Source: a virus
IMG/VR virus record: IMGVR_UViG_3300025241_000078
Span: 1-41,408 of that record
Strand: one strand, 5' to 3'
DNA: 41,408 bases
Shown here one piece after another: positions 1,226 through 29,109 of this stretch (position 1 is the first letter of the stretch; every line of letters begins with the position of its first letter). Position numbers and translations under genes: made by a program. Under the pieces are notes generated by a model. It saw only the letters and a list, made by a program, of their open reading frames with translations. It did no database searches and was not told where the DNA came from.

Positions 1226-4200
1226 TCAACGCTTCGCTCGTATATCCTCTACCCGCTTACCGGCCATCTCCGTCAGACGACTCTTGATCACCACAAGGCG
1301 ATCCAGTTCGCGCCGTTTGGCATCGGCATCAAGCTCGCCCAGACGCACCGCATCCATGCGACCATTGATCGCTGACAAGCGCCGCTGCACCTGGTTGAGC
1401 TGCTTGCGCAGCCCAAGCACGTCGCGCTTCCCGCGGATCACCCCGCGCGCTTCTTCCATGCGGCCAAGCTCCTGTAGCTCCTTCACGTCGGCATAAGCCT
1501 TGCCCGCTTCGCGCAGACCTTCATAGAAGATCGTGCTGTATCGGGTGTATGCCGCTGGCGTGTCCAGATCACGGTAGAAACGACGGATCGGTTGATACTC
1601 GTGCCAGTGCTTTGCTGGCTGGCTTTCTCCATTGGCTGCGCGCCACATCGTATCGACCATACCTGCTCCCCACGCGCCGACCTGGCCCAAGTAGCCAGCA
1701 ATCAGGTGGTCGGCTTGGATGGGAGATACAGCAAGCGGGAACTCATCACCGAACACGCGGCTGACAGCCGATGCCGCGCGCGCCGGGGCCGTGGTGGTCG
1801 CTCGGGTGCGCAGCCCCTTGCTTAGGCGGTCCATTCCGGTCGACTCGATCGGGCGACCCGTGAAGGCATCCACGTTCGAGTACACGTCAAGCACCGGCTG
1901 GAACATGTGCGGTACCGGCGAAAAGGAAAAGGTCTGCGTCAGGGTGTGCCCCAGGCGCTGCGCGAACAGCTTGCCGGTCGCCTTGTCGTCAATGGCCTGC
2001 TGCAACAGACGCTCGGCCATAGTGGCGATCGCGCCGACCTCGAACGGCTTCGGGATGAAGAAGGCCTTGCCACCTACGCGGACGAACCAGTAGGTATCCT
2101 TCTGCCATTCTTCGAGCTTGCGGTATTCCTCGTCGTCGTTGTTCACCAGCATGAGCGCCATGCTCGCCATGGATAGCGCACCCACGACTGTCATGAAGCG
2201 CGCTGCAGCTTGCTTGTCAGAGGCATTGCCCTGGCCGAACGCGGTCAACAGAGAAGGCTTCACGCCGGCACGGTAGAGTTTGTCCAAACCCTGGAGGCGC
2301 GCATTGAGGAACGGCACCACGCGGATCAAAAAGCGAACCGCCGGCCAGGCGCCATGCATGGAGAAGTCCATCAGGTCACGCGCCTCGAAGGCTGCCGCCA
2401 GTTTTCCGCTGCCCTGCTCGTTCTGCTCGAAAATTGCCGCCCGGTTCGCATTTTCTGCGGTGTTGGCTACGGCGTTCCAAGCATCCCAGCCAGCCTTCAA
2501 CGCTTGCGGTACCAGCTTCGGTCCGTCGATCAATTTGGCGCTTCGCAGGTTGCGCGTGATGTGCGCTTTCACTTCGTCCGGATCGTTGCTATAGATATGC
2601 CCGAAACTGAAGGCGCCACCGCTGGCGAGCATGCGCGCCCGCTTACGGGTGTCGGTCCAATTGGCGCCGCCCACCGCGATGTTCTTCAGGAAGTTCTTGC
2701 TCACTGGTGATGTTGCGGTAGCCGACATCGAGTCGCGCAGCAAGTTGGCGATGATGAACTGTGGCGTGATGGTGGTCATGTTCGTAAACAGGCGCTTGAA
2801 GAAACTCATCGCGTGCACAGCAGCGTTGTTCAGGCCGGCATCGCTGAGCGAGCTTAGCGCTTCGAACACCAACGGATCGCCGATGTTGTACCACTGTTTA
2901 ACGCCCGCCTTGAGCACGAAGGTGCTCGCCTTCTTGTCCCGCGCCGCTTCGCTCACTGGCTGAGCAATCCCAAGCTGCTCGGCATTGTTGATCGCTTGCG
3001 CAGCCGCCTGGTTCCTCAGGCTTGCCTGCAGCAAGTGGTTGAAGTTCAGCAGCGTGTTCTGCAGTAGATCGTTCAGGTTCTGGCTACCACCCTTAAGCTT
3101 CTTGTAAGCCTCCTGGCGGGTCAGCCCTTTGGACGCCATCGGGCCGGTGGCTGCAGCGTCTTCGTCCATCACCCGGTAAAAAGGCACGTAGAACTCGTCG
3201 CGCCAGAGTGCGCGGCTTTCCGAGGTGATAACGCCCGTTTGCTCGGCGATCGCCAGCACGTCGTCCCGGTATTGCTGAAACTCGGCGAACACCTCGGTGT
3301 ACAGCGTGCCGCGTGCCTTCCCATGCTGAGTCGTGCCGCTATTGAGGGTGCGCAGCGCATCGATCTCGGCGGCGTCGAACAGGTTTTCCCGGCCTTCGGC
3401 GGCAAGCTTGGCGGAGCGGTTGCCGGCGATCCAGCCCATGAAGCGCTCGATCTCCGCCGCGGAGCCCAGGCGCGCCAGCGTCGCGCCCAGGCCGAGCGCA
3501 TCGCCGTCCTGGATGTCGATCACCTTCTGCTGCTGGTCCAGGTAAATGCGCCCGTTGTTCAGCATCGCATGCAGTGCGCCGCTGGCTGCCGACGACATGC
3601 GCGCCAGCACCCAGGCACTGCTTGTGATGTCGGTGCCCAGGACATCGTCCCCATGCACGGCCACGTCCAGCTCTCGCAGCGCCGCGTAGCGATCGACAAT
3701 GCCTTGGCGGATCTTGAGTAGCGCACGATCCGAGTGCTGGCGGAACCAATCGATCGCCTGCTGCTTCGCCGTGCGTGGCGCGATCTTGTTCAGCGCATCC
3801 TTCTGCTTGGCGGTAAGGTCGCTGAACGCTTCGGAGGTGTGCTGACGCTTCCCGGCCAACGCGTATCGGGTGCTTTCGTCCTCGGTAACCCCGGCCTGAC
3901 TGTCGCGCAGCCAGCGGCGAGACTGCTCGCCCAGCGCCAGGATGTCGGTGTAGGTCCATGGCACCTGCGGGAACAACGCTCGCAGCAGTTCTCGGGCTTT
4001 GGACAGCACGCGCTGCAGCGCGGTAGGCCGCTCTCCATCCTCGATCAAGTGCGCAACCATCTCCTCGGCGATCATCAGGTGCTGCTTGCGAGCATCGAGC
4101 TTCTTCAGGACCTTGGCATAAGCCTGGCGAATTTGCGCGATGCGCTGGCGGCCCTTGGCCGTTGCTGCCTGGCTGGCATACAACCGTTCCATGGTCGCGT

Positions 4201-7200
4201 CCAGTTGGTCGCCTAGCAGGCCATGAATGCCGCGGTGGCCAACCTCTTCGTGCACGGCCGTAAAGACCGCGTCGGCAATGCTGGCGTGGTTGCCGGCGAC
4301 AACATAAGTCGCCCCGCTGCTGAAAATCCCGCGCAGCTCATCCGGCGCGATGCCGTCACGCTTGGCTCGGATCCTCGCTGACAGGGGAAGGTCATCGAAC
4401 GTTTGCACGACCTTCACACCGGCAAGTTCAGAAACCCCCGATAGTGCATCCGTGACATGTTCGGCCTTCGTTCCAGAGCCTTCACCCAGCCGGTAAAGGC
4501 TGACACCCTCGTCCGTTTCGCGGGCTTCGATGGTCGAGAACAGCTTGTCGAAGGCTTCGTTAACCGGGCCTTGCTCGTCCGGGGTCAGGTACGGGTACCG
4601 ATCCTGGCTACGTGAAAACTCTTCAAGGCTGCGCACGTTGGCCAGGTAATCATTGCGATAGCCGCGATCGGCCAGCTTCGCAATCACGTAGGTTTCAAAG
4701 GAGCGAGCGCCGCGCTCGATGATGCGCGACCAGTACCCATCTGCGGCTCCCTTATCCAGAACGGCCGAGCGTTTCGCCATCGGCGACTGATCGAGCGTGG
4801 CAACCACTTCGGCGAAAGCCTTCTCCACCTTCGGCCTCACCCCTTCTGGGTGCGCAGGATCGGGCATCCAGTTCGCCTCGGCGTACATCGGTGCGTTCGG
4901 ATGGTTCGCCTGGTACATGTCCAGCTTGGCGCGGGTCAGGCTTTGCGCCGGGTACTTCTTGTTGACGAGGACCGGCTCCGGCCGATAGGTGATATACGAC
5001 GCCTCGCGCGCCGTCTTGGCTTCGCTAGCCTCTCGCTTGCCGGCAAAGTAGTTGTCGAGCGCATGAAACCACTCATGCGCCAACGAGCCAGCCCCTTTCG
5101 TCTTGGTCAGGTTGATGACAACGGCGTCCGGCTCGAAGTGGGCACTGGCCCGGCCTCGCCCGCGAGAACCGAAGCCGATGCCCAGCCGCCCTTCCAGACT
5201 CAATGCCTTCGGCGGTACGCCCACCACCTCAGCCAAATCCATGAAGGCATCATAGGCATCATTGAGCATGCCCTGGCGGCCTTTACTGCCATCGCCCTGC
5301 GCAACCCAGTTACCGAACTCGACGCCTCTGAATCCGAACGCCTCGAGGAACTGTTCGGGCGTGATGTCCGCTCCGCCGCGGTGATCGGTGCCAGTGCGAA
5401 CCTCGTTCAAGCTGCGGCGCATATCCGCCTTGGTCACGTTGTCTCGGTTCTTAACCGCGTCCCACGCTGCGACCAAGCTGTCATGTTCGTTGGCGATGTG
5501 ATCCCTGGCCTCTGCCACGCTCTTGAAGGTTGCCAGCCGGCGGGTCTCTCGGTCGCCGCTTTTGGCGATGAAGACCTGTCCGGTCGCTCGGTCTGAGTAG
5601 ACGTCGAACTGCATCTTCTTCTCAGGGGCCGATTTGAGATTCAGCGCCAGGCGGACATCGTTAATTGCCTCAGCAATAGAACCCTTACCGTAGAAGTGCT
5701 TGCCTCGGCCGTCGATTTCCACCTCGGCCCAAGACCCCGGCACCATCTGCCCGTCCTTGCTGTAGCTGCCGGTTGCCATGCTCACCCGGCCGATCCGCGC
5801 CCACTGCGCCCGATCAATCCCCATCAGCAGCTCAATCTTGTCGGCTACCGACCGCAGTGAAGGGCTGAATGCTCGCATCTTGGCGACCGTCGAATCGCCG
5901 CCCATCCGCGACAGCTCCGCAAGCAGCTCGCGCGCCGCCTTCACTTTGTTCACCCAGCCGGCAATCCTGTACGGAGCCCGGGGTTTCGTGGGGATGAAGT
6001 CCCGCACGGTCTGGTAAGCAGCCGCGTGGAAGTTGTCTTCTATGCGGTCAATCTCGCCCTTTGGCCATAGCTCGCTGAGCTTGCTGTTCGCAATGCTCTG
6101 GTCGTCCATGTTGTCCAGGCGCTCCCGCAGGCCGCGCAGCTCATCTTTGCGCGCGCCGCCTAGCTTCTCGCCGAAGTCTTCGACCTTGGCGGGCTTGGGC
6201 TCAGTGGCTGGTTCTGCAGGGCTCGGCTTCTTCTTGGCCAGCTGGGTGGCTTGTTGTTTCGCTTTACTGGCTGGAGTGGTCGGCTGGGCACCGAACATAT
6301 CATTCTGCCCGCGCGCGGCGGCAATGTCCGATATCCGGTCTGAGCCGGTCAGGGTGAAATCTTTACGGTCGCGGTCGGCCTGAGCCTTCTGCTCTGTCTC
6401 GCGCTCCTGATCGGCACGAGCCTTCTCGGCGGCAGCATTGCGCTCCGCCTGCTCTTTCAGTCCTGCTTCGGTTTGCTGTTCGAGGCTGAACGACGCGCCG
6501 CGATCTTGTCCAGCAGATCCAGCTTCTGCTGCATCAGCTGCCCGTACCTCGTCATCGCGCCGGACGGCTGCGTCCTCATCGAGCGGATTTCCGTCAATGA
6601 AAGTTTCGGTTCTTTCTGGCTCATCAGAGATGAACTCCTCATACCTTAAAGCGTCTTCGTCGAAAGCAGCGTCTTGGGATCTTGCGTGTGCCGCAGCCTC
6701 GGCGCCGTGCTCGGCCTCGATGCGGGCGTATTCAGCTTCGAGCTGCTCACGCTCAACGGCCAATTGCTCGTTGATACGCTCGAGCATTTCCAGCTCGTAC
6801 TGTTCCAGCTGCCGAACAGAGTCTGGCGCATAGTGTGTCTTTCTGCCAGCCAGTTCATCTCGCAAGGCTTCCTGCAGCCAGCTCACGCCACCGTCTCGGT
6901 CCATTTCGCCAGCTGGAACATAGCCGTGCTGGTCAAGCAGGGATGCCATGTCATCCAGGCTGGTCCCGGTGTTGTCGCTCCATAGCGCTCCGACACCTGG
7001 AATGTTCTTGTTGCCCTTGGTGTCGCCGGTCGTGTCCTGTTTCCACTGTTTGGTAATGCCGCCGAGCCTGATGGCTGCTTGCACTACGCTATCGCGGTCT
7101 CGATCAACGGCTCGCCGACTGCCCTTTGGCCTGGGCTGATCGGGCGGTGCCTGGTGCGCAGAGGCAGCCGTTTTCGGTTGAGGCGGCTTGACGCCCGGGC

Positions 7201-9451
7201 TCGGCAGCGCGAGCGGCTTGGAAAGCGCACCGCCTTTCAGCCATGATTTGAACTCGGTCACCGGCATGGCGGTGACCGGGCCCACCTTCCAGCCTTCGTC
7301 AAAGTTGGCACTGTAGGCTTGCACTGCCGTCGCCTGGTCGGAATAGCCCAGCATGACTTTGTGTTCGTCGAAGCTTCCGTCCTGCTGATTGAGCTGGTCG
7401 ACCACGAATACCTGATCGCTGTCCTGCTGCGGCCCAACGTAGACGTCCACCTGCTCGCCGTCGGCGCCCGTGGTGCGCTTGATGTAGCCGTAATGGTCGC
7501 CCATCGTGCGCCGCCATGGCGTACCGTCCGGCCCGGTACCGCTCCGCTCGGAACCCCGCGGATTCTCAATGGAGATATCCAGGCCCTGAACGCGGACGCG
7601 ACCCTTTTTGTAGTTTCCGGCCTCAATCTGCGCGGGTGTCGGCGCAGGTAGATCGTTGGTCGGCGAGGTCGCGGCCTGGTTGGCTGCCTGATCGATCGGC
7701 CGCATCTGGTACCGCTTCGGATCCGCCGGCACGCGTACGGCGAAGCCGCCATCGACCTTAGCGACCGTCGGGTTACGGCCTACCTTCCTAGCCTCGCGGA
7801 AAGCCTTGCTGGCCTTCGCTGCGCCGTGCGCCTGGAACGGCTCGCCATTGCTGCGGGCCATGTACTCAAAGTCATCGTCGCGGCGAATTGCGGTCGGCGC
7901 CTGCTGATCCATGCCGCGCCCACCAGTGGGAGCCCGGTCAAAGATTTGCGGCTTAGTGGCGCCACGCTGGGCATTGCCCTGCCCGTCCACCACGAACGCA
8001 TCGGGCGCAGGCAGTGCCGGCTGCAGGGTTTCGCCATCCAAGGTCAGACCTTCCTGCGCTTGGCTATCGGCAACCTGCTGGCGGCTTCCATGCTGGAACT
8101 GTCCCTCAAGCGGCGCCGGCTCACCGCGAGCCACCTGGCGCTCCATGCCCTCTCCGCCCACGGAGCGATCGGCACGGTTGCGCGGGTTGATCCATTGCCG
8201 CCCCTGCTGGTCGGGCTGCATTTCGCCGTCAACATTGCGTACCGGGCCGACGTCCTGCATGTTGCCCTGGCTGTCGGCGTAGAAGGTCGGCTCGGGCTTG
8301 GGGAGGCCCTGCAGCCCTGGCGCCGGCAATGCGGCAGGCTCTGGCGCATCCTCAAAGGTGGCATCAGGCTCGGCGGCCGAATCGGCTGGCCGCGCAGCGT
8401 GCTCCGGGCGGCCGAGCACTGCGCCAAGGCTCGCATGGCCTGCGCCACCCATGGCGCCCAGCAGGGCGTCGCCGAAGGTATCCTCGGTCAGGGAGCGCTG
8501 CTCACCGATCGCCTGGTTCGTCGCAGCGCGAGCCGCCACGGACTCGCCCACCTCTTGCGCACCTTCAGCCGGAGCATCCAGCGCCAGGCCACCAGCCAGG
8601 CGCCGGCCTGCGCTTCCTCCGATCTGCCGCTGCAGCGGCCCCAGCGCGTAATGAGTCATGGCACCGCCAACTGCACCCACCGGAGCCGCCCCCTGAAACG
8701 CGGCTGCGCGTGCGGTAGCGGACACCTGGGCGCGAGCAGCAGCCTCATCCAAGCCGTTCGCGCGCAGCTGGCGGTACAGGTCCGAAGCCTGCTGCAGGTC
8801 AGCGTCTGGCATGGCTGCAAGGCGCTGCTCGACTTCGTTGCCCGCCGCGCCGCCAGCCTGGAGGCCGCCAATGCCTGCCATTCCTACCATGCGCGCCTGA
8901 CCGCCGGGGATTGCCAGCGCAGCGGCCTGAGGCACGAACTGGCCCACCAGGTTCGCACCATGCAGCCCGTAGCCGGCGAGCGTAGGATCGTCGCCCATGC
9001 TCCAGCTGGACGGGTCAAGAACGTCACCTTGTGGCGTGCTGGCTTCCAGCGTCTGCTTGGCCGCCTCGGTCTTAGCGGCCTGAATTTGCTTACCCGCAGC
9101 GTCGATCTGGCGACCTGCCGGACGAAACAGTAGGTCGCTCGGTGCCGGAATGCTCTTCAGCGCATCCACGGCTCCGGCGGGCAATACCGCACGAGCGCCT
9201 CGCTCAACAGCATTTCCCGCCGTTGTCAGCAGGTCGCCGAAGCCGCTGACGACCGCGCCGGTGCCAACCAACGCGCCACCCGCCATCTCCTTGCCGTAAT
9301 CCATGGCTTCGATGCCGCCCCGCTCGGCTGCCGCATCGTTGGTCGGCTCGACGGGCTCCGCTGGCTGATACTTAGCCCATGGCCCGGCCTGCTCTGGCTG
9401 AGGCCGTTCAATGGCGGATTGCTGCTGGTACTTCTCCCAAGGGCCCGCCAT
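1226..9451 (-). CDS. Giant polyvalent virion protein (InPase-like, LPD1-like zincin, LPD38-like)
   Basis: A 2741-residue protein, the largest gene here and the last of the late region, of the polyvalent-protein type thought to be ejected into the host with phage DNA. The N-terminus has two GPWxKYQ motifs (residues 2-8 and 22-28) and then a Gly/Ala-rich hydrophobic region to about 350. Around 620-735 is an inorganic-pyrophosphatase-like domain (GDHYGYIKR, VDVYVG, DEHKVMLGY). A charged linker follows near 850-1090. Around 1290-1600 is an LPD1-like region with the zinc motif HEWFH at about 1459-1463. A second motif, HEEVGH, is at about 1734-1739. Around 1880-2540 is an LPD38-like region (TTITPQFIIANLLRDS near 2225), followed by a helical, probably coiled-coil tail. 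The ATG at 9451 overlaps the previous stop (TGATG); a GTG one codon earlier is possible. Domain names rest on motif recognition only. Confidence 0.85.
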   Translation of the reverse strand: MAGPWEKYQQQSAIERPQPEQAGPWAKYQPAEPVEPTNDAAAERGGIEAMDYGKEMAGGALVGTGAVVSGFGDLLTTAGNAVERGARAVLPAGAVDALKSIPAPSDLLFRPAGRQIDAAGKQIQAAKTEAAKQTLEASTPQGDVLDPSSWSMGDDPTLAGYGLHGANLVGQFVPQAAALAIPGGQARMVGMAGIGGLQAGGAAGNEVEQRLAAMPDADLQQASDLYRQLRANGLDEAAARAQVSATARAAAFQGAAPVGAVGGAMTHYALGPLQRQIGGSAGRRLAGGLALDAPAEGAQEVGESVAARAATNQAIGEQRSLTEDTFGDALLGAMGGAGHASLGAVLGRPEHAARPADSAAEPDATFEDAPEPAALPAPGLQGLPKPEPTFYADSQGNMQDVGPVRNVDGEMQPDQQGRQWINPRNRADRSVGGEGMERQVARGEPAPLEGQFQHGSRQQVADSQAQEGLTLDGETLQPALPAPDAFVVDGQGNAQRGATKPQIFDRAPTGGRGMDQQAPTAIRRDDDFEYMARSNGEPFQAHGAAKASKAFREARKVGRNPTVAKVDGGFAVRVPADPKRYQMRPIDQAANQAATSPTNDLPAPTPAQIEAGNYKKGRVRVQGLDISIENPRGSERSGTGPDGTPWRRTMGDHYGYIKRTTGADGEQVDVYVGPQQDSDQVFVVDQLNQQDGSFDEHKVMLGYSDQATAVQAYSANFDEGWKVGPVTAMPVTEFKSWLKGGALSKPLALPSPGVKPPQPKTAASAHQAPPDQPRPKGSRRAVDRDRDSVVQAAIRLGGITKQWKQDTTGDTKGNKNIPGVGALWSDNTGTSLDDMASLLDQHGYVPAGEMDRDGGVSWLQEALRDELAGRKTHYAPDSVRQLEQYELEMLERINEQLAVEREQLEAEYARIEAEHGAEAAAHARSQDAAFDEDALRYEEFISDEPERTETFIDGNPLDEDAAVRRDDEVRAADAAEAGSAGQDRGASFSLEQQTEAGLKEQAERNAAAEKARADQERETEQKAQADRDRKDFTLTGSDRISDIAAARGQNDMFGAQPTTPASKAKQQATQLAKKKPSPAEPATEPKPAKVEDFGEKLGGARKDELRGLRERLDNMDDQSIANSKLSELWPKGEIDRIEDNFHAAAYQTVRDFIPTKPRAPYRIAGWVNKVKAARELLAELSRMGGDSTVAKMRAFSPSLRSVADKIELLMGIDRAQWARIGRVSMATGSYSKDGQMVPGSWAEVEIDGRGKHFYGKGSIAEAINDVRLALNLKSAPEKKMQFDVYSDRATGQVFIAKSGDRETRRLATFKSVAEARDHIANEHDSLVAAWDAVKNRDNVTKADMRRSLNEVRTGTDHRGGADITPEQFLEAFGFRGVEFGNWVAQGDGSKGRQGMLNDAYDAFMDLAEVVGVPPKALSLEGRLGIGFGSRGRGRASAHFEPDAVVINLTKTKGAGSLAHEWFHALDNYFAGKREASEAKTAREASYITYRPEPVLVNKKYPAQSLTRAKLDMYQANHPNAPMYAEANWMPDPAHPEGVRPKVEKAFAEVVATLDQSPMAKRSAVLDKGAADGYWSRIIERGARSFETYVIAKLADRGYRNDYLANVRSLEEFSRSQDRYPYLTPDEQGPVNEAFDKLFSTIEARETDEGVSLYRLGEGSGTKAEHVTDALSGVSELAGVKVVQTFDDLPLSARIRAKRDGIAPDELRGIFSSGATYVVAGNHASIADAVFTAVHEEVGHRGIHGLLGDQLDATMERLYASQAATAKGRQRIAQIRQAYAKVLKKLDARKQHLMIAEEMVAHLIEDGERPTALQRVLSKARELLRALFPQVPWTYTDILALGEQSRRWLRDSQAGVTEDESTRYALAGKRQHTSEAFSDLTAKQKDALNKIAPRTAKQQAIDWFRQHSDRALLKIRQGIVDRYAALRELDVAVHGDDVLGTDITSSAWVLARMSSAASGALHAMLNNGRIYLDQQQKVIDIQDGDALGLGATLARLGSAAEIERFMGWIAGNRSAKLAAEGRENLFDAAEIDALRTLNSGTTQHGKARGTLYTEVFAEFQQYRDDVLAIAEQTGVITSESRALWRDEFYVPFYRVMDEDAAATGPMASKGLTRQEAYKKLKGGSQNLNDLLQNTLLNFNHLLQASLRNQAAAQAINNAEQLGIAQPVSEAARDKKASTFVLKAGVKQWYNIGDPLVFEALSSLSDAGLNNAAVHAMSFFKRLFTNMTTITPQFIIANLLRDSMSATATSPVSKNFLKNIAVGGANWTDTRKRARMLASGGAFSFGHIYSNDPDEVKAHITRNLRSAKLIDGPKLVPQALKAGWDAWNAVANTAENANRAAIFEQNEQGSGKLAAAFEARDLMDFSMHGAWPAVRFLIRVVPFLNARLQGLDKLYRAGVKPSLLTAFGQGNASDKQAAARFMTVVGALSMASMALMLVNNDDEEYRKLEEWQKDTYWFVRVGGKAFFIPKPFEVGAIATMAERLLQQAIDDKATGKLFAQRLGHTLTQTFSFSPVPHMFQPVLDVYSNVDAFTGRPIESTGMDRLSKGLRTRATTTAPARAASAVSRVFGDEFPLAVSPIQADHLIAGYLGQVGAWGAGMVDTMWRAANGESQPAKHWHEYQPIRRFYRDLDTPAAYTRYSTIFYEGLREAGKAYADVKELQELGRMEEARGVIRGKRDVLGLRKQLNQVQRRLSAINGRMDAVRLGELDADAKRRELDRLVVIKSRLTEMAGKRVEDIRAKR

Positions 9452-10692
9452 CACTTCTTACTCCAGTTTTCAGGGTTGGCAGGGTCGCCACCAAGGAACT
9501 CGTAGCCGTCTTCGACGTGACCCACCTTCGGCCCCTGCTGCGGCGCTGAAGGCTTGGGCTCCTGCCGGGCTTGCTGCTGACCAGGAACGCCGACAAGGCC
9601 CAGATCGCTGGCGAGCCCTTGCCGCGCCTGCACAAGCTGCTCGCGCTGTTGACGCAACGCTGCTTCCGCATCGGGCTCCGGAAAGGCTTCGAGCTGCGAA
9701 TCGATTTCCTTAATCTGGTTGGTGAGGAAGGTCACCCGGTACCGGTCGCCGGCGCTGATGCTGCTGTCGCTACCGCCTCGTTTCAGGCGCACCAGTTCGT
9801 CACGGGCCTGCTGGTCGCTCATGCCGTTGGATTTGAGATATTCGAGGGTCTTCACGTCGCTGCTCGGCGCATAGGCGCCGCCCGCACCGATCGATTTGCG
9901 GCCAACGACGCTCTTCATTTCACCGGTTCGATTGTTGCGCTGCAGAATGGCGCCGTCGGGGCCCTCGACCTGTTCCCACTTATCGGCTTCCTTCGGCAGG
10001 TAGCCGGAGCTGCGCAGATAGCCCAACATCTTCTCGCGATTCTGGCCGAGCGCCTGGTAGATCGACTTGGCACCCATTACCGGGGCGATCGCCTGATCGA
10101 TCTCGTACTGCGCTACCTCGTCGTCCTCGCCTTCCAGGCCCCGATTCACCGTCATCGGCGCCAGCCGCTTGTTGCCCTGTTCGTCCTCAACTTCCAGCTC
10201 GAAAACGAACGAGCCTTCCTTTTGCCCGGGGTACATGCCGGCCAGCCGCTTCTTGCCGCCATTGCCGCGGTTCACGCGGGGCGCGTAGAAGTCGTTCATG
10301 GCGTCGACGGTCTGCTTGCTGAACAGCGAACCCTCGCCCTTGGCCAGCTTGTCGGCGTACTGCACAGCTGCCTCGGTCTCAGGTCGGAACAGGTGGCGCG
10401 GATCTGCGAGCTTGTTTCGCTCGAATGCCTTTTCGAGCTCGGGCGTGATGGGCGCATCGATGCCGCTGGCCCACCCGGTATAGAAATGCGCGATATGTTG
10501 TTGGTCCCGCTGGCTTTGGCGCTCATCCTGCTGCGCAGCAAACTCCTGCTCACGCATATCGAGCCCGCGCTGCTGCATCTGCACTTGCTGATCAGCGCGT
10601 GCGCTGGACGCCTTCCGGTGGTTATAGGCGTCCATCATGTTGAAGCCTTGCACGAAGCCGTCGAAGGCCCCGCGCGTATCAAGTCCTGCCAT
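9451..10692 (-). CDS. Internal virion protein (uncharacterised, upstream of giant protein)
   Basis: A 413-residue protein, mostly helical and charged. Residues 25-70 are Gln/Arg-rich and likely coiled coil; the middle has a mixed alpha/beta look; the C-terminal third is another helical, Gln-rich stretch, then a Pro/Gln linker. The start at 10692 is chosen because GGGAGG lies seven bases upstream; a longer frame would need TTG at 10707. It sits directly before, and overlaps by one base, the giant polyvalent protein gene. In podoviruses this position is held by internal core or ejection proteins, so a role in the ejection apparatus is inferred. No enzyme motif is seen. Confidence 0.7.
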   Translation of the reverse strand: MAGLDTRGAFDGFVQGFNMMDAYNHRKASSARADQQVQMQQRGLDMREQEFAAQQDERQSQRDQQHIAHFYTGWASGIDAPITPELEKAFERNKLADPRHLFRPETEAAVQYADKLAKGEGSLFSKQTVDAMNDFYAPRVNRGNGGKKRLAGMYPGQKEGSFVFELEVEDEQGNKRLAPMTVNRGLEGEDDEVAQYEIDQAIAPVMGAKSIYQALGQNREKMLGYLRSSGYLPKEADKWEQVEGPDGAILQRNNRTGEMKSVVGRKSIGAGGAYAPSSDVKTLEYLKSNGMSDQQARDELVRLKRGGSDSSISAGDRYRVTFLTNQIKEIDSQLEAFPEPDAEAALRQQREQLVQARQGLASDLGLVGVPGQQQARQEPKPSAPQQGPKVGHVEDGYEFLGGDPANPENWSKK

Positions 10693-27588: not shown

Positions 27589-27950
27589 CGCACGGCCTCC
27601 AACTGCCGGTAGACCTGAGCGACTTCAGCTCGGCGGTCGTTACGGCGCTGCAAGGCAGCAAAGCGAATGCCCTGGACGTTCTCCACCAGCTCGCGCATGT
27701 ACCCGACGGGGTTGGCGGCGAACTCAGCCAGCTTCACTCGCACCTCTAGCCCCATGCCGTCGGCGACGTCGAACTTGAACTGCACGGCCGGGTGCTCGTC
27801 GTAATGCTCACCCACCAGCACCGGATCCACCTGAATGTTGGCCACGTCGTTGCGCACCTGGCGGGACGGAACAGCCAGCGGCGCCAACTTGGACGCGATG
27901 AAGCTCGCCACCTGTCGATGCTCAACGGTGATGAAAAGATTGCTGCTCAT
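27585..27950 (-). CDS. Small protein between large terminase and portal, function unknown
   Basis: A 121-residue mixed alpha/beta protein (LFITVEHRQVASFIASKL, VQFKFDVADGMGLEVRVKLAEF) with a basic helical C-terminus. It starts inside the stop of the terminase C-terminal fragment (ATGA) and ends inside the start of the portal gene, so the three are translationally chained. The position suggests a packaging accessory. No family is recognised. Confidence 0.65.
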   Translation of the reverse strand: MSSNLFITVEHRQVASFIASKLAPLAVPSRQVRNDVANIQVDPVLVGEHYDEHPAVQFKFDVADGMGLEVRVKLAEFAANPVGYMRELVENVQGIRFAALQRRNDRRAEVAQVYRQLEAVR

Positions 27951-29109
27951 GTGTGTGCGTTCCAGTTGCGGCGTCCGCGCTCCGTATTCGGAGCCGTTGG
28001 CGTGCTGTTCATGCCGGTGGACAGTTCAAACAGTCCGCTCCGGGCGAGTGTTTCGAATGCTTTGGCGCCGTGTGACGCCCAGTCGTGACGCGGGGTCGAC
28101 CGGTACACGCCCAGCCGGTCGTCCCATTCCTTGCGGTAGTTGTCGAGACAGTCGATCAGGCGATCTACGCTGACCACCTTGTCATCGCCGCCAGCATCGA
28201 CCTGCTCCGCAAACCAGCACATCGGCAGGAACTGGCGCACCGCCTCGATGCCCTCGGCGTGGTTGCTGATCCGCGGCACGATCTCGAAGCGGATGCCGAA
28301 CTGCGCCGCTTTATCGACACGGCTCTTGCCGGTACCGAGCTCACGCACCGCCAGGTCATGCGGTCCGTAATGTTGCCCGTAGGTGTAGCCCTTCTCGTGC
28401 AGTGCTTCTGCGCTGTGGCGCAGTAGTCGTGGAAGTAGCCTTCACGCCCTTCTGCGGTGCTCTCCAGTGTTACCTGGTTACCAAGGCCGACCGCCTCGAA
28501 CGCGCCGGTAACGATCTCCTGCGCCTTGTCAGGGTACTTGCGGCAGATCTTGCCGAACTCGGAGACGTGCAGGCGCTGCAGCGTGCCGCCCCGGTAACTG
28601 GTCGAGACGCGGATGCTCGAGCCATTGTCGAATACATAGCCTTCGCCGCGATCGCTGGTCGGCGCCGGCAGCTTCAGACCGATGGTGTTGAAGATCGCCA
28701 TCCACGCGCCCTGGCGGAGCTGGTCATAGGCGAACTTGATCTTGTTCCGGAAGATGTCCTTCGCGTCTTCCAGCGCGTGCGCGATGCAGCCAGCCGAAAA
28801 GTTCTCAGTGAACAGGCAATCATCCAGCGCATCGATCATCTCGAAGGTGGTGAAGCCCAGCTGGCGTGCCTTGAGGATCACATTCCGGCAATGCCCGCGG
28901 ATGAACCGCTCGCGCTGCTGCTTGTTCGGACGGAACGTGCGCGTCTTGCCGTTCTTGTCCTTAATCTTGTAGAGCGTGTTGAGGCGGTACCACTTGTTAT
29001 CCAGCGCACGCAGCAGGTCGGCCGGATCGGTCAGCTTGCCCTCACAATGCAACCGCAGCCACCGCTCACCCTCGAAGACGACGGCGGCCGGCGCCCTACT
29101 CTTCGACAC
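27947..29109 (-). pseudogene. terL: Large terminase gene with internal deletion and frameshift
   Basis: The N-terminal part (29109 to about 28402, 236 residues) is a normal terminase ATPase: the Walker A-like region ILKARQLGFTTFEMIDA, the Walker B-like LHVSEFGKI, and TLESTAEGREGYFHDYCATAQKH. Directly after AQKH the frame changes to nonsense (CTRRATPTG) and stops at 28165. The C-terminal part resumes two bases out of frame at about 28402 as LHEKGYTYGQHYGPHDLAVRELGTGKSR and runs to 27947 (about 151 residues) with the usual end (LPMCWF, YRKEWDDRLG, RHDWASHGAKAF). The 150-200 residues usually found between, including the first nuclease aspartates, are absent. Transcription and coupling to neighbours are otherwise intact. 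Inference: an out-of-frame deletion that abolishes packaging. Confidence 0.8.

Follow-up and report, generated by a model that had tools for sequence, protein, structure and literature searches.

The analysed window, a virus record of 41,408 bases, encodes a large polyvalent protein of the phage type, as seen from its disparate domains and from the place of its gene near virion genes. Within this single polypeptide lie two metallopeptidase-type sites, HEWFH (zincin 1) and HEEVGH (zincin 2), each with every residue of an H-E-H...E zinc site preserved, and judged by their sequences the two are no detectable duplicates of each other. Why carry two such sites in one protein? We consider limited self-processing, action on host proteins and a structural part in head loading, and weigh each where the evidence bears on it.

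Domain architecture and genomic setting

The reading frame runs uninterrupted on the minus strand from 9454 to 1226, giving 2742 codons from a GTG at 9454; the second codon is an ATG at 9451, a start there would yield 2741 residues, and the stop occupies 1226-1228. Over the same coordinates (1226-9454) the plus strand is stop-rich. An earlier note on this DNA had described one protein of 2741 residues at 1226-9451. There is indeed a single frame, and those figures fit the ATG start, but the note omitted that the frame lies on the minus strand. Residue numbers here are counted from the GTG and exceed that note's ATG-based numbers by one. The features are as follows.

1226..9454, minus strand: coding sequence of the polyvalent protein, from the ORF translation
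9425..9448, minus strand: AGPWEKYQ, residues 3-10, first copy of a sequence repeat with a putative head-targeting role
9365..9388, minus strand: AGPWAKYQ, residues 23-30, second copy of the repeat
7235..7633, minus strand: InPase (PF18823), residues 608-740, Pfam E 1.4e-56, profile 2-135 of 135
7475..7501, minus strand: GDHYGYIKR inside InPase, residues 652-660, by motif position
5339..5638, minus strand: LPD5 (PF18799), residues 1273-1372, Pfam E 1.8e-23
4505..5401, minus strand: zincin 1 (CLCA_X-like) with LPD1, residues ~1352-1650, from Pfam, NCBIfam and invariant columns
5063..5077, minus strand: HEWFH, residues 1460-1464, from motif and alignment
4520..4759, minus strand: LPD1 (PF18796), residues 1566-1645, probably the C-terminal half of zincin 1, Pfam E 8e-14
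4715..4717, minus strand: E1580, probable third zinc ligand of zincin 1, invariant in 21/21
3890..4465, minus strand: zincin 2 (HExxxH type), residues ~1664-1855, from motif, alignment and predicted layout
4235..4252, minus strand: HEEVGH, residues 1735-1740, from motif and alignment
4061..4063, minus strand: E1798, probable third zinc ligand of zincin 2, invariant in 27/27 and in the predicted second helix
2141..2197, minus strand: hydrophobic segment, residues 2420-2438, possible membrane helix, Kyte-Doolittle mean 1.77
1592..2134, minus strand: LPD38 (PF18857), residues 2441-2621, Pfam E 8e-41

The InPase match, at 190.5 bits against a Pfam gathering cut-off of 26.8, passes that threshold, and the pyrophosphatase-like domain that the earlier note had recognised by GDHYGYIKR near residue 651 is confirmed at residues 608-740, with the motif at 652. 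That note's positions for HEWFH (near 1459) and HEEVGH (near 1734) likewise agree with ours, at 1460 and 1735. Its LPD38-like region near 2225 was wrongly placed, Pfam putting LPD38 at 2441-2621, and its list of domains lacked LPD5. The "LPD1-like zincin with HEWFH" was roughly right, except that the half bearing HEWFH matches CLCA_X and Pfam LPD1 is the stretch downstream. A model of the C-terminal part was poor (mean pLDDT 56.4), too poor to be used in fold searches.

Two further stretches gave matches of their own. Residues 129-361 (window 8372-9070, minus strand) match PHROG 2206, "virion RNA polymerase", at E 1.5e-9; domain-family profile searches, including Pfam and NCBIfam, found no polymerase domain in the protein, and the stretch may be an ejection or membrane segment that it shares with that family. 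For residues ~1208-1279 (137-208 of the model described below), VIA-align returned mostly dsRBD-like folds, weakly (Z up to 4.4), and a nucleic-acid-binding module before or at LPD5 is possible.

The gene closes a late run as its last long member. Upstream on the same strand are family matches to portal/head-tail adaptor, major head, internal virion, tail-fibre and terminase proteins. From this late-gene position, and from the precedents discussed below, we infer that the protein is very probably packaged and ejected together with the DNA. Close relatives (loci L030-L032) sit in Stutzerimonas and Pseudomonas genomes, so the host probably belongs to that group; L030 is in S. xanthomarina DSM 18231, with 96% identity across zincin 2. 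The large terminase gene itself looks broken (window 27947-29109, minus strand), its two halves lying in different frames. In the relatives G002 and G003 the halves are about 485 bases further apart, while G001, with 100% identity over the query, shares the window's gap, which may be a real deletion or an assembly fault.

Two unlike zincin-type sites

Both motifs are above chance: shuffling the protein 2,000 times gave a mean count of 0.05 for HExxH and 0.05 for HExxxH. Among 21 aligned zincin 1 sequences (alignment A5), the invariant columns include H1439, H1460, E1461, H1464, D1467 and E1580. The last of these is likely the third zinc ligand, as its conservation suggests, and it falls within Pfam LPD1, making LPD1 the apparent C-terminal half of this domain. 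The NCBIfam profile CLCA_X (NF041907) matches this domain, with its best stretch at residues 1352-1487 (E 1.8e-35), at 122.6 bits for the whole protein and 126.8 for the sub-region against a curated cut-off of 260; zincin 1 is CLCA_X-like, and by that cut-off it stands outside formal CLCA_X membership. The feature of CLCA_X in which HExxH is soon followed by Asp is present as HEWFHALD, with D1467 invariant in all 21 sequences, and 24 of the 30 rows of a second alignment (A2) match CLCA_X as well. The A2 profile also matched tetanus toxin chains (E 0.003, bias 6.3), which we took as chance because the match lies at profile positions 115-255, ahead of the two zincin motifs.

Zincin 2 was aligned across 27 proteins that are 18-85% identical to the window (alignment A4), in which A1720, H1735, E1736, H1740 and E1798 are the sole invariant columns. 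An AlphaFold2 model of residues 1072-1880, built on 30 aligned rows (mean pLDDT 72.5, pTM 0.42), predicts for this domain a helix and then strands at model positions 609-612, 638-641 and 644-648. A helix at 655-692 follows in the model and holds H664, E665 and H669, equivalent to H1735, E1736 and H1740 (block pLDDT 87), and another at 717-734 holds E727, equivalent to E1798 (block pLDDT 91); pLDDT was taken per ten-residue block, and the zincin 2 blocks span 68-91. Conservation and model together make E1798 the probable third zinc ligand. At the level of secondary structure only, the order of these elements is the core order set out in Iyer et al. 2017 (PMC5512222), and zincin 2 as predicted pairs HExxxH with a Glu in the core helix that comes next, the marks of a clade described there. 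The earlier note counted HEEVGH outside a zincin fold as a refuting result; the layout predicted around the motif is zincin-like, again as secondary structure only.

For zincin 1 the model is less even, with the block of the motif helix at pLDDT 62-75 and the preceding stretch with strands at 29-49. VIA-align of the whole 1072-1880 model against the PDB gave no row that reaches Z 5 and barely covered the zincin 2 part; its top row was PPEP-1 (6r4w), at Z 4.6 and rmsd 4.0 with 151 aligned residues, 15% identity and model positions 299-569. Foldseek of the model against the PDB returned zero matches at E <= 0.001. The zincin fold of both domains is suggested by the model, not proven.

Might HEEVGH then be a chance match, in a segment that is no zinc site? 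It lies outside every Pfam and NCBIfam family above its cut-off, and a profile search of PDB sequences with zincin 2 gave nothing credible, the best matches being designed helical proteins. Yet only 0.05 HExxxH motifs are expected per shuffled protein, the H, E, H and E are invariant in 27 sequences within a predicted zincin-like layout, and an HExxxH clade is already described in PMC5512222; we consider chance very improbable. Candidate names for zincin 2 did not hold, its Pfam matches being scattered: FmrO appeared in 4 of 27 members (best E 0.0053) and Peptidase_M76 likewise in 4 of 27 (best E 0.045). A zincin 2 scan with a Vibrio phage 1.232.O query found no relatives.

We also considered a tandem duplication of one zincin, and found no support for it: hhalign of A4 against A5 gave a probability of 1.3%, with a weak alignment that leaves the motifs unpaired. 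The earlier reading of two different metallopeptidase-type motifs in one protein is supported, with both residue sets invariant and above shuffle expectation.

Separable modules and an N-terminal doublet

To this pair we can add its distribution in a set of 40 proteins, made up of the window protein and the longest frame of each of 39 loci. HEW[FWY]H and HExxxH occur together in 30 of the 40, the window included, at spacings of 230-529 residues. Seven have HExxxH without HEW[FWY]H (L005, L032, L034, L036, L037, L046, L050), so zincin 1 appears dispensable in some. The remaining three have no HExxxH: L021 breaks off within the first motif, the L049 frame is short, and L023 has two HExxH. The long frame of L023 pairs HEWFH with a second canonical motif, HEWYH, at residues 1487 and 1919. 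These counts are not population frequencies, because the set is redundant and zincin queries were used to gather it: L008-L023 came from a zincin 1 query and others from zincin 2 queries. Of the 16 gathered with zincin 1, 14 also have HExxxH, the exceptions being L021 and L023. Repeat contigs or near-identical entries were left out (L001, L002, L006, L007, L024-L030), and near-identical or same-contig entries still in the set are L004/L031, L019/L040 and L041-L044.

Comparison of the sequences indicates that the modules of the protein are separable. The order LPD5, zincin 1, LPD1, zincin 2 is found again in diverged relatives, and L005 and L032, which lack zincin 1, have N- and C-terminal parts in common with the window or with near relatives of it. 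The HExxxH-LPD38 part is preceded in named phages by ddrB-ParB in L034, by InPase in L036 and by helicase/methylase-type domains in L037. Some part of the protein is matched in 525 of 50,697 phage records, all at <60% identity, and none of the 50,697 covers 80% of it in one place; a BFVD search gave 12 matches with E <= 0.001, several of them to named polyvalent proteins.

This modularity bears on a structural reading, in which zincin 2 belongs mainly to a C-terminal packaging module and serves in head loading, catalytic or not. Zincin 2 and the LPD38 region travel with the varied N-terminal cargo just listed, L005 and L032 retain zincin 2 without zincin 1, and in the N4 virion RNA polymerase a C-terminal region of 1,400 aa with a zincin is needed for encapsidation, as summarised in PMC5512222. 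A purely structural role, however, would not demand four catalytic-type residues invariant in 27 sequences, and we regard this reading as unlikely.

The N terminus carries the short motif doublet listed above. Across 32 proteins, a redundant set, the first 110 residues gave the strongest internal repeat relative to other tested 110-residue segments in 11, with about 1 expected; the repeat in L004 is of another sort and that in L050 is proline-rich. The doublet occurs in the window and in L005, L008, L010, L011, L013, L014, L020, L022 and L037, and Bbp10 of phage BPP-1 (L052) also has one. Its letters vary by phage, and in L011, L020 and L010 both copies change together, giving LLDEFGI, FFDQFD and FDPTSAVLDDD types. 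L011 and L020 are near-identical after the doublet and differ in the doublet itself; the less close L010 has a third kind. This pattern of sequences suggests that the doublet is an exchangeable address, perhaps one for the head. A search of seven relatives' records for the motif elsewhere gave two matches, in G004 and G006, on the strand opposite to the gene, and no partner protein for the doublet was found in those seven; in G008-G010 the motif occurs only in the gene of L014 itself, in two copies.

P1 DarB offers a parallel, being carried into heads by its N-terminal 30 residues according to PMC9024508; in the repeat test above, its first 110 residues hold no doublet that stands out. By comparison with DarB, the doublet could yield head-targeting tags for other tailed phages. 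A more specific proposal joins the doublet to the zincins: the doublet would be a head address fitted to each phage's partner, zincin 2 would act at packaging or maturation, where we place it because it travels with the C-terminal region, and zincin 1 would act after entry. We hold this combination to be improbable.

Function and comparison with known systems

We propose that the protein is made with the late genes, packaged in the head, and enters the next host cell along with the DNA. The InPase domain would remove pyrophosphate or cut an infection-induced nucleotide, the roles put forward in section 23 of PMC5512222. Behind it come the block of LPD5, zincin 1 and LPD1, then the second, unrelated HExxxH zincin, and lastly the long, mostly helical LPD38 region that would form the end of the protein. 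The likeliest use of the zincins would be limited self-proteolysis, freeing the InPase part from the C-terminal part, at head maturation or after entry. This explanation as a whole, an internal head protein that is delivered and self-processed, strikes us as on balance probable. Its parts differ in strength: peptidase activity is likely for at least one of the zincins, and self-processing by at least one of them is plausible at somewhat under an even chance. Two zincins in one protein do not alone imply self-processing. A literature search turned up neither virion nor cleavage data on this protein or on any relative of the same arrangement, and no self-cleavage experiment on its family.

The zincins could instead be effectors that cut host proteins, defence proteins for example, after delivery, with the polypeptide staying whole. 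Host targets are weighed beside self-processing in section 8 of PMC5512222; the full-length delivery of ArdC, TraC1 and the N4 RNA polymerase agrees with an uncut effector, and two unrelated sites could mean two targets. No sequence feature points to a host protein, though, and we rate this alternative a low probability. Should the zincins process the protein instead, as we favour, the family would be a compact test of whether cutting precedes packaging, happens in the head or follows entry, a timing that the treatment of polyvalent proteins in PMC5512222 leaves open.

Known head-packaged proteins provide precedents on both sides. P1 DarB and DdrB are head-packaged antirestriction proteins; DdrB resembles the window protein in having a zincin and is cited in PMC5512222 as processed before packaging, whereas DarB, unlike the window protein, is annotated as a methylase-helicase. 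According to the same survey's account, the N4 virion RNA polymerase, ArdC and TraC1 have a zincin-type domain and yet are packaged or transferred full length. The N4 enzyme is, like the window protein, giant and has a zincin ahead of a C-terminal domain, but in the window protein no polymerase domain is detected. JC1 gp69, a DarB-like protein of 4515 aa, is among the best-detected virion proteins by mass spectrometry in the JC1 data of PMC9144972; gp67-gp70 of BcepIL02, compared with six window proteins, gave no phmmer match, and because gp70 of this JC1 relative lacks a match to the window protein, the JC1 precedent is one of analogy.

Zincin 1 comes closest to CLCA_X (PMC3650047; NF041907), a family whose phage members are known and for which Bbp10 of BPP-1 was one search seed. 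The best stretch matches profile positions 2-133 of 250; the difference is that the match is split in two stretches and scores under the cut-off. PPEP-1 is the top structural neighbour, but at a Z under 5 it is not significant alone.

The closest comparison is with the polyvalent proteins of Iyer et al. 2017, a class whose description in PMC5512222 bears out the earlier note's view of them as established multi-domain effectors. In that account they carry one to five zincin-like MPTases, about 8% of MPTase proteins have more than one, and phage versions combine InPase and LPD38, with self-processing a likely role. One phage clade in section 8 has a conserved His ending strand 2 and an Asp three residues past HExxH, and another has HExxxH; both descriptions fit here, through H1439 and D1467 of zincin 1 and the HExxxH of zincin 2. 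Multiple MPTases, the HExxxH form, InPase with LPD38 and the idea of self-processing are thus already in print for the class. Set against the phage-type members in that paper, the window protein shares the joining of unrelated enzyme domains in one late-gene product and shows no basic difference from them.
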